The notes beneath the pieces are model-generated. The model did no database searches. It worked only from the letters and a program-made list of their open reading frames with translations, and was not told the origin of the DNA. A DNA stretch of 64,000 bases. It comes from Clostridium ljungdahlii DSM 13528. Lineage in GTDB: Bacteria > Bacillota > Clostridia > Clostridiales > Clostridiaceae. The number at the start of each line of letters is the position of its first letter. Within the stretch, counting starts at the first letter, position 1. Shown here piece after piece: positions 8,008 through 41,854 of this stretch. The position numbers and the translations under genes were made by a program. The stretch is from the NCBI RefSeq assembly GCF_000143685.1, contig NC_014328.1:3782001-3846000 (forward strand). The letters are read 5' to 3'.

Positions 8008-8250
8008 AAAAAAAGCCTTCATCCACAAAGGACGAAGACCCGCGTTGCCACCTTTTTTCCTGTAAATACAGGCTCTTAAAAAATAACGATTAAGAAAACC
8101 GTCTTTACCTACTGTTATTTCAGCAAAGAAACTCCAAAGCTACCTTCAAGATAATCCATATAGAAAACCTCTCAACTAACAGATTTTCCTCTCTTTATAC
8201 TCCATTATCTCTAATCCTCTTTTTCACAGTTAACAAATTCAAATTTATAT
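8008..8250 (-). promoter_or_regulatory. T-box leader RNA, valine specific
   Basis: Read on the minus strand, this leader has the conserved T-box AGGTGGCAACGCGGG (around 8040-8054), followed by a terminator hairpin (8015-8037) and seven T residues (8008-8014). Stem I carries an AGTA/GAA internal-loop pair. In the standard position (GAA, then one base, then the specifier) the codon is GTA at 8141-8143, which is valine and agrees with valS downstream. Uncharged tRNA-Val should stabilise the antiterminator and permit valS transcription. Confidence 0.93.
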
Positions 8251-34331: not shown

Positions 34332-34561
34332 GCAAGTGTACATGTCATGTTAATGTTCAACTTAGGTATCAGCAGATAATAATACTAGTTTAAACTAATT
34401 TAAATACATCCCCTGTTGAGTTTCAACGTATAATAACTGAAACAAGTAACATTGCTAAATTTACATTTAAATACATCTCATGTTAAGGTTCAACTTTCAA
34501 GAATAATAGATATGCGAAATGTTTTTACAGAATTTAAATACATCTTATGTTGAGGTTCAAC
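34332..34561 (-). CRISPR. Short CRISPR array: 4 repeats, 3 spacers, no cas genes in the window
   Basis: Repeats are 30 bp: 34532-34561, 34465-34494, 34398-34427, and a degenerate terminal repeat 34332-34361. On the crRNA strand they read GTTGAACCTTAACATGAGAT followed by GTATTTAAAT, with small variations. Spacers are 37, 37 and 36 bp (34495-34531, 34428-34464, 34362-34397). The leader lies at the right (34562-34740) and the decayed repeat at the far end, so transcription is leftward. The repeat is of the kind found with clostridial type I-B systems. Cas proteins would have to come from another locus. Confidence 0.9.
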
Positions 34562-40083: not shown

Positions 40084-40112
40084 TTGCATACATGGAAGAC
40101 ATATGGTATGAT
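40084..40112 (+). promoter_or_regulatory. Promoter of the thiWM leader
   Basis: TTGCAT (40084-40089), 17 bp, TATGAT (40107-40112), just upstream of the first aptamer. Confidence 0.7.
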
Positions 40113-40113
40113 T

Positions 40114-40215
40114 TTCATAAAAAGGGAGCATGCTTAAGCATGCTGAGAGGAAGTATATGCTTCGACCTATAACTTGATTCGGATAATGCCGACGTAAGGA
40201 AATATTTAATTTATG
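40114..40215 (+). promoter_or_regulatory. TPP riboswitch (canonical)
   Basis: All core elements are present. GGGAGC opens P2, CTGAGAGG (40143-40150) is the pyrimidine-binding J3/2, CGACC closes P2, and CTTGATTCGGATAATGCC, then GACGTAAGGAAAT, forms P4/P5 with the pyrophosphate-binding GGATAATGCC (40181-40190). It is followed by its own terminator at 40244. Confidence 0.95.
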
Positions 40216-40243
40216 CTGTTTTTGTATGTTTTATGAGTGTAGA

Positions 40244-40277
40244 TGGAATGTGCCTTACAAGGTATGTTCCATTTTTT
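40244..40277 (+). terminator. Terminator of the TPP riboswitch
   Basis: TGGAATGTGCC pairs imperfectly with GGTATGTTCCA, followed by six T. This is the expression platform of the canonical TPP aptamer. Confidence 0.82.
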
Positions 40278-40285
40278 ATATTTAA

Positions 40286-40315
40286 AAAGCAGTGGGGGAG
40301 CGCCCGGGGCTTTAT
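40286..40315 (+). other. GC-rich hairpin between the two leader RNAs
   Basis: AAAGC and GCTTT bracket a run of G and C (GTGGGGGAGCGCCCGGGG), unlike the AT-rich surroundings. It has no T run. It could insulate or pause polymerase between the first terminator and the second aptamer. Confidence 0.4.
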
Positions 40316-40327
40316 AATAAAAATACA

Positions 40328-40423
40328 ACTAAATAGCGAGGGAACTTGTGTTTCAAGGTGAGAGGAAGCTTTTGAGCTTCGACCGACCAATATGATTTGT
40401 CATATAGGGAATTGCTATTTGGT
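40328..40423 (+). promoter_or_regulatory. TPP-riboswitch-like RNA lacking the P4/P5 pyrophosphate arm
   Basis: P1 is a 10-bp stem (ACTAAATAGC with GCTATTTGGT, 40328-40337 and 40414-40423). Inside are GAGGGAAC, an ACTTG/CAAG stem, TGAGA (40359-40363) at the J3/2 position, GGAAGC/GCTTC and CGACC, just as in the canonical copy 190 bases upstream. The usual P4/P5 with GGATAATGCC is absent; instead there is a simple hairpin TATGA-TTTG-TCATA (40391-40404) followed by the conserved AGGGAA. It may sense a non-phosphorylated thiamin precursor, or be a decaying copy. Confidence 0.6.
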
Positions 40424-40509
40424 TACTCTAAAATTATGCCTACAATAATGATGTTTATTTCCTATGTGATAAATTTAGAAAATAAATATTATTATGGAGG
40501 TACTTTATT

Positions 40510-41079
40510 ATGGAAAGAAACTCAAAACTATTAAAAAAACTTATGCTGGCAATGATGGTGGCAATGGGAGTTGTCATTTCGCCAATTCTTCGTATAGAAG
40601 GAATGTGTCCTATGTCTTCTGTTATAAATATTACATGTGCAGTTTTTTTTGGACCTTGGTATGCGCTGCTTTGTGCTGTTTGTATTGGAATTATAAGAAT
40701 GTTTCTTATGGGAATTCCACCTTTAGCTTTGACAGGTGCTGTTTTCGGAGCTTTTTTAGCAGGATTTTTATATAGAATATCTAAGAATACTTTGATTTTT
40801 GCAGTTTTAGGTGAAGTTATCGGAACAGGTATTATAGGCGCTGTTGTCTCATCGCCTATTATGACATATTTCTGGGGCAAAAAAGGCCTTTCACTTATGT
40901 TTTATATTCCTTTATTCTTTACTGCTACAATTATTGGTGGAACAATTGCCTTTATTTTTTTAGGAACATTAAGCAAAAATGGAATGCTTATAAAGATTCA
41001 GAAAGACTTGGGGGTAAAAGTCTATGACAAATCAACAGACACTGATAAACAACCTATTGCAAATAAAACGCAATGTTAA
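40510..41079 (+). CDS. thiW: ECF transporter S component for thiazole (ThiW)
   Basis: A 189-residue membrane protein with about five helices. The ThiW signature lies in the N-terminal half, VISPILRIEGMCPMSSVINI, then FFGPWYALLCAVCIGIIRM and PLALTGAVFGAFLAGFLY. It is the substrate-specific subunit for hydroxyethylthiazole; the energising EcfAAT module must be encoded elsewhere. GGAGG lies before the ATG. It overlaps thiM by 56 bp and stands behind two thiamin-related leader RNAs. Confidence 0.93.
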   Translation: MERNSKLLKKLMLAMMVAMGVVISPILRIEGMCPMSSVINITCAVFFGPWYALLCAVCIGIIRMFLMGIPPLALTGAVFGAFLAGFLYRISKNTLIFAVLGEVIGTGIIGAVVSSPIMTYFWGKKGLSLMFYIPLFFTATIIGGTIAFIFLGTLSKNGMLIKIQKDLGVKVYDKSTDTDKQPIANKTQC

Positions 41080-41854
41080 AATAAAAAAACCTCTTATTCA
41101 TTATATTACAAATCCAATTTCAATAAATGATTGTGCAAATGCAATGCTTGCTATTGGGGCAAAACCTATTATGGCCGAGCATCCTCTAGAAGTTTCTGAA
41201 ATTACATCTGCTTCTAACGCACTTGGAGTTAACCTTGGAAATATAACCGATGTTAGAATGAAATCCATGTTGATTTCAGGCAAAACGGCTTTTAAAGAAA
41301 GAATTCCCCAAGTAATTGATCTTGTTGGTGTTGGCTGCAGTAAATTGAGGTTTAATTATGCAAAGAAATTTATTTCTCAGTGTCATCCAGACGTCATCAA
41401 AGGTAATTTATCTGAAATAAGAGCACTTTGTGGTATAGAAAGCAATGCAAAAGGAATAGATGCAGGGGAATGTGATAAGATAACAGAGGATAACTTTGAT
41501 GAAAATATAGAAATTGTAAAAAAACTATCCCTTAGAACAAATTCTGTTATTGCAGCTACTGGTGCAGTAGATGTAATAACTAACGGCAGCAAAACATATT
41601 TAATAAAAAACGGTTGTGAAATGCTTTCAATGGTAACAGGTACAGGGTGTATGGTTACTGCACTTATAGCAAGTTATATTTCTTCCTTAGATATATTTGG
41701 TGCTACTATTTTAGCTGTATCACTTATGGGAATATGCGGAGAACTTTCTCATCATGTTACCGGTATAGGAAGTTTTAGAACTAATCTTATAGATAACTTA
41801 TTTACAATTTCTGATAACACTATAATAAATAAAATAAAGTGTGAATTAAAATAA
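41024..41854 (+). CDS. thiM: Hydroxyethylthiazole kinase
   Basis: A 276-residue ribokinase-like enzyme that phosphorylates hydroxyethylthiazole for thiamin salvage. HYITNPISINDCANAMLAIG, KPIMAEHPLEV and the C-terminal ATP/anion-hole GTGCMVTALIASY are family signatures. The start lies inside thiW with GGGGGT 8 bases upstream. Together with ThiW it imports and traps thiazole. Confidence 0.95.
   Translation: MTNQQTLINNLLQIKRNVKIKKPLIHYITNPISINDCANAMLAIGAKPIMAEHPLEVSEITSASNALGVNLGNITDVRMKSMLISGKTAFKERIPQVIDLVGVGCSKLRFNYAKKFISQCHPDVIKGNLSEIRALCGIESNAKGIDAGECDKITEDNFDENIEIVKKLSLRTNSVIAATGAVDVITNGSKTYLIKNGCEMLSMVTGTGCMVTALIASYISSLDIFGATILAVSLMGICGELSHHVTGIGSFRTNLIDNLFTISDNTIINKIKCELK

Follow-up and report, generated by a model that had tools for sequence, protein, structure and literature searches.

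A conserved relative of the TPP riboswitch, lacking the pyrophosphate arm, precedes thiW in Clostridium ljungdahlii and across its phylum

In the TPP riboswitch structures described in PMC3764141, residues U39-A43, G19 and A47 hold the pyrimidine of the ligand together with neighbouring base pairs, and P4, J4-5 and P5 are described as reading its pyrophosphate (PMC4112796). For the E. coli thiM riboswitch, pyrophosphate recognition by P4-P5 is reported to be required for switching (PMC4112796); an RNA without P4-P5 must therefore work in another way. A second described system is the HMP-PP riboswitch (thiS motif), which in clostridia comes second in tandem, after a TPP riboswitch that has a terminator of its own, and precedes thiW and other thiazole genes; its aptamer sits inside an intrinsic terminator that has a U run; the thiW leader of C. 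lundense, a TPP riboswitch followed by an HMP-PP riboswitch, is a precedent for the arrangement analysed here (PMC6478431). TPP-TPP tandems are also known, and the account that discusses them mentions unpublished work of the Breaker laboratory in which some RNAs “currently classified as TPP riboswitches” prefer thiamin or TMP (PMC9481103); the RNA analysed here may or may not be one of these TPP-derived variants of altered specificity.

We analysed a 64,000-nucleotide stretch of the genome of C. ljungdahlii DSM 13528 (hereafter the window), in which a second structured element, spanning 40287-40424, lies between a canonical TPP riboswitch and the genes thiW-thiM. The features of the locus are as follows:

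40112..40217, plus strand: canonical TPP riboswitch aptamer, the first of the tandem (Rfam RF00059, 60.9 bits against a cut-off of 54.3)
40241..40274, plus strand: terminator-like hairpin assigned to the first riboswitch (T run and 15 pairs, of which 4 are G-C, in a consensus scan)
40287..40312, plus strand: H0 hairpin (4 bp, 2/2 internal loop, 4 bp, 6-nt loop GGAGCG at 40297-40302)
40327..40339, plus strand: 5' strand of P1 (partner 40412-40424; 11 contiguous pairs counted from the inner GC)
40340..40342, plus strand: 5' strand of P2, GGG (39/39 members; register from the alignment to the TPP model)
40345..40357, plus strand: P3a hairpin with loop UGUUY (GUGUU in 39/39)
40359..40363, plus strand: UGAGA, the J3-2 T-loop (39/39), which in TPP riboswitches helps to form the pyrimidine pocket (PMC3764141)
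40365..40380, plus strand: P3 hairpin, 5 bp and a 6-nt loop (99.5% of alignment cells paired)
40381..40385, plus strand: GACCG, 3' strand of P2 and its conserved flank (ACCG in 39/39)
40387..40408, plus strand: P4*, the hairpin in place of P4/P5 and a probable component of the expression platform (constrained fold; 40394-40412 can pair downstream)
40412..40424, plus strand: 3' strand of P1 (partner 40327-40339)
40437..40502, plus strand: hairpin pairing part of the ribosome-binding site (GGAGG at 40496-40500; from folds)
40457..40475, plus strand: partner of 40394-40412 in an alternative (switch) helix (duplex of -22.0 kcal/mol, z -3.9)
40510..41079, plus strand: thiW, ECF S component for a thiamin precursor (thiazole) (PF09512, 3.9e-45; TIGR02359 above cut-off)
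41024..41854, plus strand: thiM, hydroxyethylthiazole kinase (PF02110, 3.9e-60; NF006830 above and TIGR00694 below cut-off)

A sequence-only reading of this DNA had proposed a variant TPP-like RNA in front of thiWM, in tandem behind a canonical TPP riboswitch with a terminator of its own. The genes are identified by Pfam and NCBIfam, the upstream riboswitch by its RF00059 match, and a terminator-like hairpin does follow that riboswitch; as the terminator scan returned two sites of this kind over 3 kb, where shuffled sequence gives 1.1, the call at 40241-40274 rests on position and form.

The second element is real and is conserved across the phylum of Clostridium. In the window, the fold of 40320-40430 is better than that of 200/200 dinucleotide shuffles (z -4.18), and the order of parts from 5' to 3' is H0, linker, GCKA[U], GGG, P3a, UGAGA, P3, ACCG, P4* and the 3' strand of P1, with 7-34 nt between H0 and GCKA[U] across members (the 5' strand of P1 included). 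It shares with RF00059 the P1-P2-P3 layout, the P3a that is optional there, the UGAGA of J3-2, the GG/CC of P2, the A of ACC, the association with thiamin genes and, often, a TPP riboswitch as neighbour. It differs from RF00059 in lacking P4/P5, J4-5/J5-4 and L5, in having a P3 of 5 bp closed by a 6-nt loop (38/39 members), in its UGUUY loop on P3a and in the obligatory H0; the Rfam TPP model gives it 14.9 bits against the cut-off of 54.3. P4/P5/L5, including GGAUAAUGCC, are absent by eye from the window element and from the member leaders inspected, and in the window the hairpin AUAUGA-UUUG-UCAUAU stands where P4/P5 would be. Because the defining second arm is missing, we do not file the element as a TPP riboswitch. 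It is nevertheless descended from, or copied after, one, and it is built like a riboswitch.

The sequence-only reading thus saw correctly that P1, the P2/P3 arm and TGAGA are kept and that the pyrophosphate arm is lost, and UGAGA recurs in 39/39 members; several of its details need revision. The P1 that it took for a perfect 10-bp helix has 11-13 pairs including one G-U. The element that it placed at 40328..40423 starts about 40 bases earlier, with H0, and the view that P1-P3 with a bare hairpin make up the whole aptamer is not supported, since H0 is found in 39/39 members. The reading also missed the P3a hairpin with its conserved loop. The closing AGGGAA that it listed is present in the window, yet it is not conserved (AGGAAA, AGGGGA and GGTAAA also occur), and this segment, like P4*, takes part in alternative pairing. 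Finally, P4/P5 is indeed replaced by a hairpin, but a role of this hairpin in the sensor is not supported: it can re-pair downstream.

Relatives were collected with two covariance models. The first, R1, was built on ten relatives and run over 391 genomes of the class; 18 genomes reached at least 57 bits, and the remaining listed matches had at most 50.6 bits. The gap to the canonical TPP matches is small (57.0 vs 50.6 bits); the 11 lower matches that we inspected (L044-L052, L054, L055) look like canonical TPP aptamers. The second model, R2, built from 23 sequences and applied at E <= 1e-8, found the motif in 6/398 genomes of the phylum, 19/194 of the family and 4/16 of another family. Together the searches give 39 distinct genomes, which fall into 15 family groups (groups being labels of the search tool), with R2 scores of 78.9-108.1 bits. 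Forty of the thiW leaders without the motif, all scanned with R2, reach 31.6 bits at best, and an Rfam TPP match is present in 13 of the 20 such leaders scanned for it. In the C. ljungdahlii genome the motif is single-copy: the next R2 match has 33.7 bits, against 108. L030, whose P3 carries a long insert, was excluded from A5 and R2 but is part of A6.

The sequence-only reading had argued that the intact P1 and the clean replacement hairpin speak against random decay, and had made its proposal depend on homologous leaders with compensatory changes; such leaders exist, with covariation in P3 and P3a, and the proposal is not refuted. In the alignment of the 39 members, 97.6% of helix cells pair, two-sided changes occur in 15/19 pairs, and 0/500 shuffles reach the observed value on each of five measures; in controls with slid partners, pairing falls to 34.7-53.6%. 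Two-sided changes are seen in 8/8 pairs of H0, 3/4 of P3a (100% of cells paired) and 4/5 of P3. This alignment was fitted to the covariance model, and the models that gathered the members were themselves made from members, so that some of the conservation seen in the core is built in. When 23 members are aligned with MAFFT, 97.0% of cells are paired and 14/19 pairs show two-sided changes; 0, 3, 0, 353 and 0 of 500 shuffles reach the observed value on the five measures, the count of further pair types being not above chance (353/500 shuffles as high). Pairing of P1 is kept while its sequence varies, by A-U, C-G and G-U exchanges, in 27 members from nine family groups: at least five contiguous pairs form in 26 of the 27, and the last (L075) pairs by eye when shifted by two bases. 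Its 3' strand was assigned by eye in 28/39 members, of which L058, with another register, was left out of the P1 test, and none was assigned in the other 11 (L029, L034, L035, L037, L038, L039, L041, L042, L043, L057 and L076). Two divergent members of the window's family (L075, 1501-1602; L027, 1501-1603) have the same layout with other P4* sequences.

That the element is a decayed, non-functional duplicate of a TPP aptamer has in its favour its resemblance to the neighbouring TPP aptamer; the covariation, the 34 positions at which 37 or more of the 39 members, across 15 family groups, share a base, and the consistent association with particular genes stand so squarely against it that we reject it as having next to no probability.

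The gene context is nearly uniform. The motif precedes thiW in 38/39 members and thiM in 1/39. Of the 18 strong R1 matches, 17 lie directly 5' of an independently found ThiW gene and the eighteenth lies 5' of thiM; among the other 21 members, 16 are placed before ThiW by Pfam, and L065, L066, L068, L070 and L073 by a ThiW match at the same contig positions. ThiW itself is found in 79/391 genomes at 80 loci, 17 of which carry the motif. As a separate observation, the ThiW frame of L071 (1725-2087) has 121 residues and covers profile positions 3-108 of 150; the gene is perhaps broken.

Larger stretches around the members show where the motif stands within operons; TPP positions in these stretches are pattern matches, supported also by Rfam for G254, G128 and G204, “cytX” is the label we give to the Pfam permease family PF02133, and the operon genes were identified in eight of the eleven stretches. 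In six operons the motif is internal and follows a cytX-like gene, thiC or other thiamin-related genes: TPP-cytX-like permease-[motif]-thiM-thiE-thiD (G254), TPP-cytX-like-[motif]-thiW-thiM (G128, G204), TPP-thiC-[motif]-thiW-thiM-thiE-thiD (G298), TPP-thiF-thiG-thiH-like radical SAM gene-thiE-[motif]-thiW-thiM-thiE-thiD (G232) and TPP-thiM-thiE-[motif]-thiW (G841). In G821 and G803, no TPP pattern was found in the stretch before [motif]-thiW-thiM.

The bases equivalent to the TPP pyrimidine pocket (U39-A43, G17-G19, A47-C49) are invariant in 39/39 members, the numbering having been matched in this analysis between the register of the TPP-model alignment and the residues named in PMC3764141. 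Apart from TPP, the only Rfam match is to Vault RNA on the opposite strand, at 17.2 bits (cut-off 34), which we discard as a chance match; no family of Rfam 15 covers the element at its cut-off, and in the 20 member loci scanned the TPP model matches nowhere inside the motif at E <= 0.01. With the pyrimidine pocket kept, the phosphate-reading arm lost and a new hairpin gained, the RNA probably senses a molecule related to vitamin B1 other than TPP. Our main reading, to which we give a probability of roughly 55%, is that the element represents an orphan riboswitch class, derived from the TPP riboswitch, that gates thiazole salvage in response to a pyrimidine-bearing compound of the thiamin pathway, most likely HMP or its phosphates; these are favoured because the bases of the pyrimidine pocket are intact and the pyrophosphate arm is gone. 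The most likely ranking of ligands would then be HMP, HMP-P or HMP-PP first, followed by thiamin/TMP, thiazole and TPP.

The same invariant bases bear on the proposal that the RNA senses the thiazole (HET or HET-P), giving feedback from the substrate or product of ThiW/ThiM. Genes of thiazole salvage form the context throughout, and the new H0 and P3a loop could form a new pocket; the positions conserved in 39/39 members, however, include counterparts of the bases with which TPP structures grip the pyrimidine, and we consider a thiazole ligand improbable.

H0 raises the question of whether the pyrophosphate arm was moved rather than lost. Its layout of 4-2-4-6 is that of P4-P5 in the Rfam TPP model, and its loop reads GGAGCG in 33/39 members and GAGC in 39/39. 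Folded alone, H0 takes the same shape with one extra outer pair (z -0.93, a stability not above that of shuffles). We may speculate that H0 is a displaced P4-P5 arm: in a permuted-like TPP fold, P4-P5 would have moved to H0, the GGAGCG loop would dock, perhaps on the P3a loop UGUUY, the RNA would grip a shorter pyrimidine ligand, HMP-PP, and the emptied P4 would serve as the switch. We regard this fold as unlikely. On paper, the GAGC of the H0 loop can form a kissing contact with the GUUY of the P3a loop; the P3a loop is invariant but for its last base (C or U), and since all other positions of the contact are invariant, covariation speaks neither for nor against it.

The shared 4-2-4-6 layout could also be taken to mean that H0 docks from the 5' side in place of P4/P5 and that the element is a second TPP sensor, the pair giving a steeper response; TPP-TPP tandems are known (PMC9481103). 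The bases of the H0 internal loop, however, show no conservation among the 39 members, in contrast to the conserved J4-5/J5-4 of TPP riboswitches, and a TPP riboswitch already heads the six operons in which the motif is internal; we find a second TPP sensor slightly more improbable than one for thiazole.

The resemblance to the HMP-PP riboswitch is one of position. The motif too precedes thiW, and among 20 member loci an Rfam TPP riboswitch directly precedes the motif in 12 and stands some 1.3 kb upstream in three, while five have none upstream within the locus. In contrast to the HMP-PP aptamer embedded in its terminator, our motif is about 100 nt or more in length, has the pocket bases of the TPP riboswitch and contains no terminator in the window. 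Compared by its published description (Rfam scans returned no family of that name), the HMP-PP riboswitch is rejected as the identity of the window element, no terminator-like site lying within the motif.

How would such an RNA switch? The sequence and length of P4* vary among members, and what persists is its complementarity to the leader downstream of P1. In the window, 1/300 shuffles gives a duplex between 40394-40412 and 40457-40475 as low in energy as the observed one. Among the 28 of the 39 members with an assigned P1 3' strand, which are the members covered by the duplex and accessibility tests, the duplex of P4* with the downstream leader has z -2.0 or lower against dinucleotide shuffles in 22 (15/17 of the window type and 7/11 of the others; L058 has z -2.63); L073, L027, L028, L033, L059 and L074 miss that value. 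Members within a group are related, and the 28 duplexes are thus not 28 independent tests; between groups, the switch helices of the window type, of L030 (16 bp) and of L032 (13 bp) are unrelated in sequence. On these modelled pairings, the P4* arm is probably expression platform rather than aptamer. In L031, L036, L040 and L056 it is the 5' strand of P4* that re-pairs, and in the window type, L030 and L032 the 3' strand; the same switch is made from opposite strands (window 40387-40412 and members).

The element thus shows hallmarks of a riboswitch: a conserved structured leader, related genes, and alternative pairing near expression signals. The leader may also be bound by a protein rather than a small molecule.

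The second element seems to act on translation, and the direction in which it acts bears on the ligand. In the computed folds, the GGAGG of the ribosome-binding site has a mean unpaired probability of 0.30 in the window; over the 28 members, the mean accessibility of the site is 0.29 without the aptamer and 0.31 with it, and most window-type leaders keep the site largely masked in both modelled states (folds without pseudoknots). Leaving the aptamer out raises accessibility by more than 0.1 in 5/28 members and lowers it in 4/28. With the site masked when P1/P4* is formed, an OFF switch fits the models at least as well as an ON switch sensing HMP.

An OFF switch is what one would expect if an armless TPP aptamer bound thiamin or TMP and repressed thiazole salvage on uptake of thiamin, and this is the alternative that we weigh most heavily, unlikely as we judge it to be. 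The variants of the Breaker laboratory point to such a preference among some TPP-classed RNAs (PMC9481103), in one reported assay the effect of thiamin on a TPP aptamer was about that of TPP (PMC12747935), and in the 5/28 members just mentioned, including L030, L032 and L036, the site is less accessible with the aptamer formed. Against it, those variants are said to be classified as TPP riboswitches, whereas our motif falls far below the cut-off at 14.9 bits; accessibility changes in the opposite direction in the 4/28, including L031 and L056; and a site inside the operon, only before thiW/thiM and behind cytX/thiC, is less natural for a thiamin sensor. It is mainly because of the remark on thiamin- or TMP-preferring variants in PMC9481103 that we are cautious about both ligand and priority; among the papers listed in our searches of the open-licence literature of PubMed Central, we saw no description of the motif.

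Returning to HMP or its phosphates as the favoured ligands, we propose the following mechanism. The RNA would bind a compound of the thiamin pathway through its pyrimidine ring; binding would set P4* against the alternative helix, and the choice between the two would expose or hide the ribosome-binding site of thiW. In the upstream riboswitch TPP would stop transcription, and thiazole uptake and the kinase would be produced only at low TPP together with the right second signal, as a thiazole transporter and kinase should be of use only with the pyrimidine half at hand and TPP short; this reasoning has been published for thiW of C. lundense (PMC6478431). The two-input gate put forward by the sequence-only reading is supported to this extent, that a TPP riboswitch followed by the second element has the look of one.

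The physiology of the host is compatible with such a gate. C. autoethanogenum and C. ljungdahlii are reported to be without thiC, thiG and thiH, and thiC-purF alone made the strains of that study independent of thiamin (PMC6505512); some route to thiazole must therefore exist in those strains. We likewise find no ThiC above cut-off in the C. ljungdahlii genome. Without pyrimidine synthesis of its own, the organism could use imported thiazole only if it also obtained pyrimidine.

If the permuted fold were true, an HMP-PP (or HMP) riboswitch would have evolved a second time, independently, and from the TPP riboswitch. Under our main reading, too, the motif would illustrate the rebuilding of a very widespread riboswitch class to read another molecule, with the pocket kept, the second arm dropped or moved and the vacated arm turned into the switch; thiamin salvage in acetogens and other clostridia would gain a regulated step. 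The motif itself is compact and is present in at least 39 genomes.

Three further features deserve mention. A fifth TPP-like RNA of the same genome (L005:1501-1601; G000:C1:1445441-1445541, minus strand) scores 42 bits against the cut-off of 54.3 and represents the opposite kind of variant: P4/P5 is kept, and UUGGGA replaces CUGAGA in the pyrimidine pocket. It lies upstream of a gene whose product resembles ThiE by eye. Elsewhere in the window, two matches to the CRISPR-DR3 repeat at cut-off (34465-34561) are perhaps a short or remnant array, and a T-box leader lies at 8025-8236 on the minus strand (113.7 bits).
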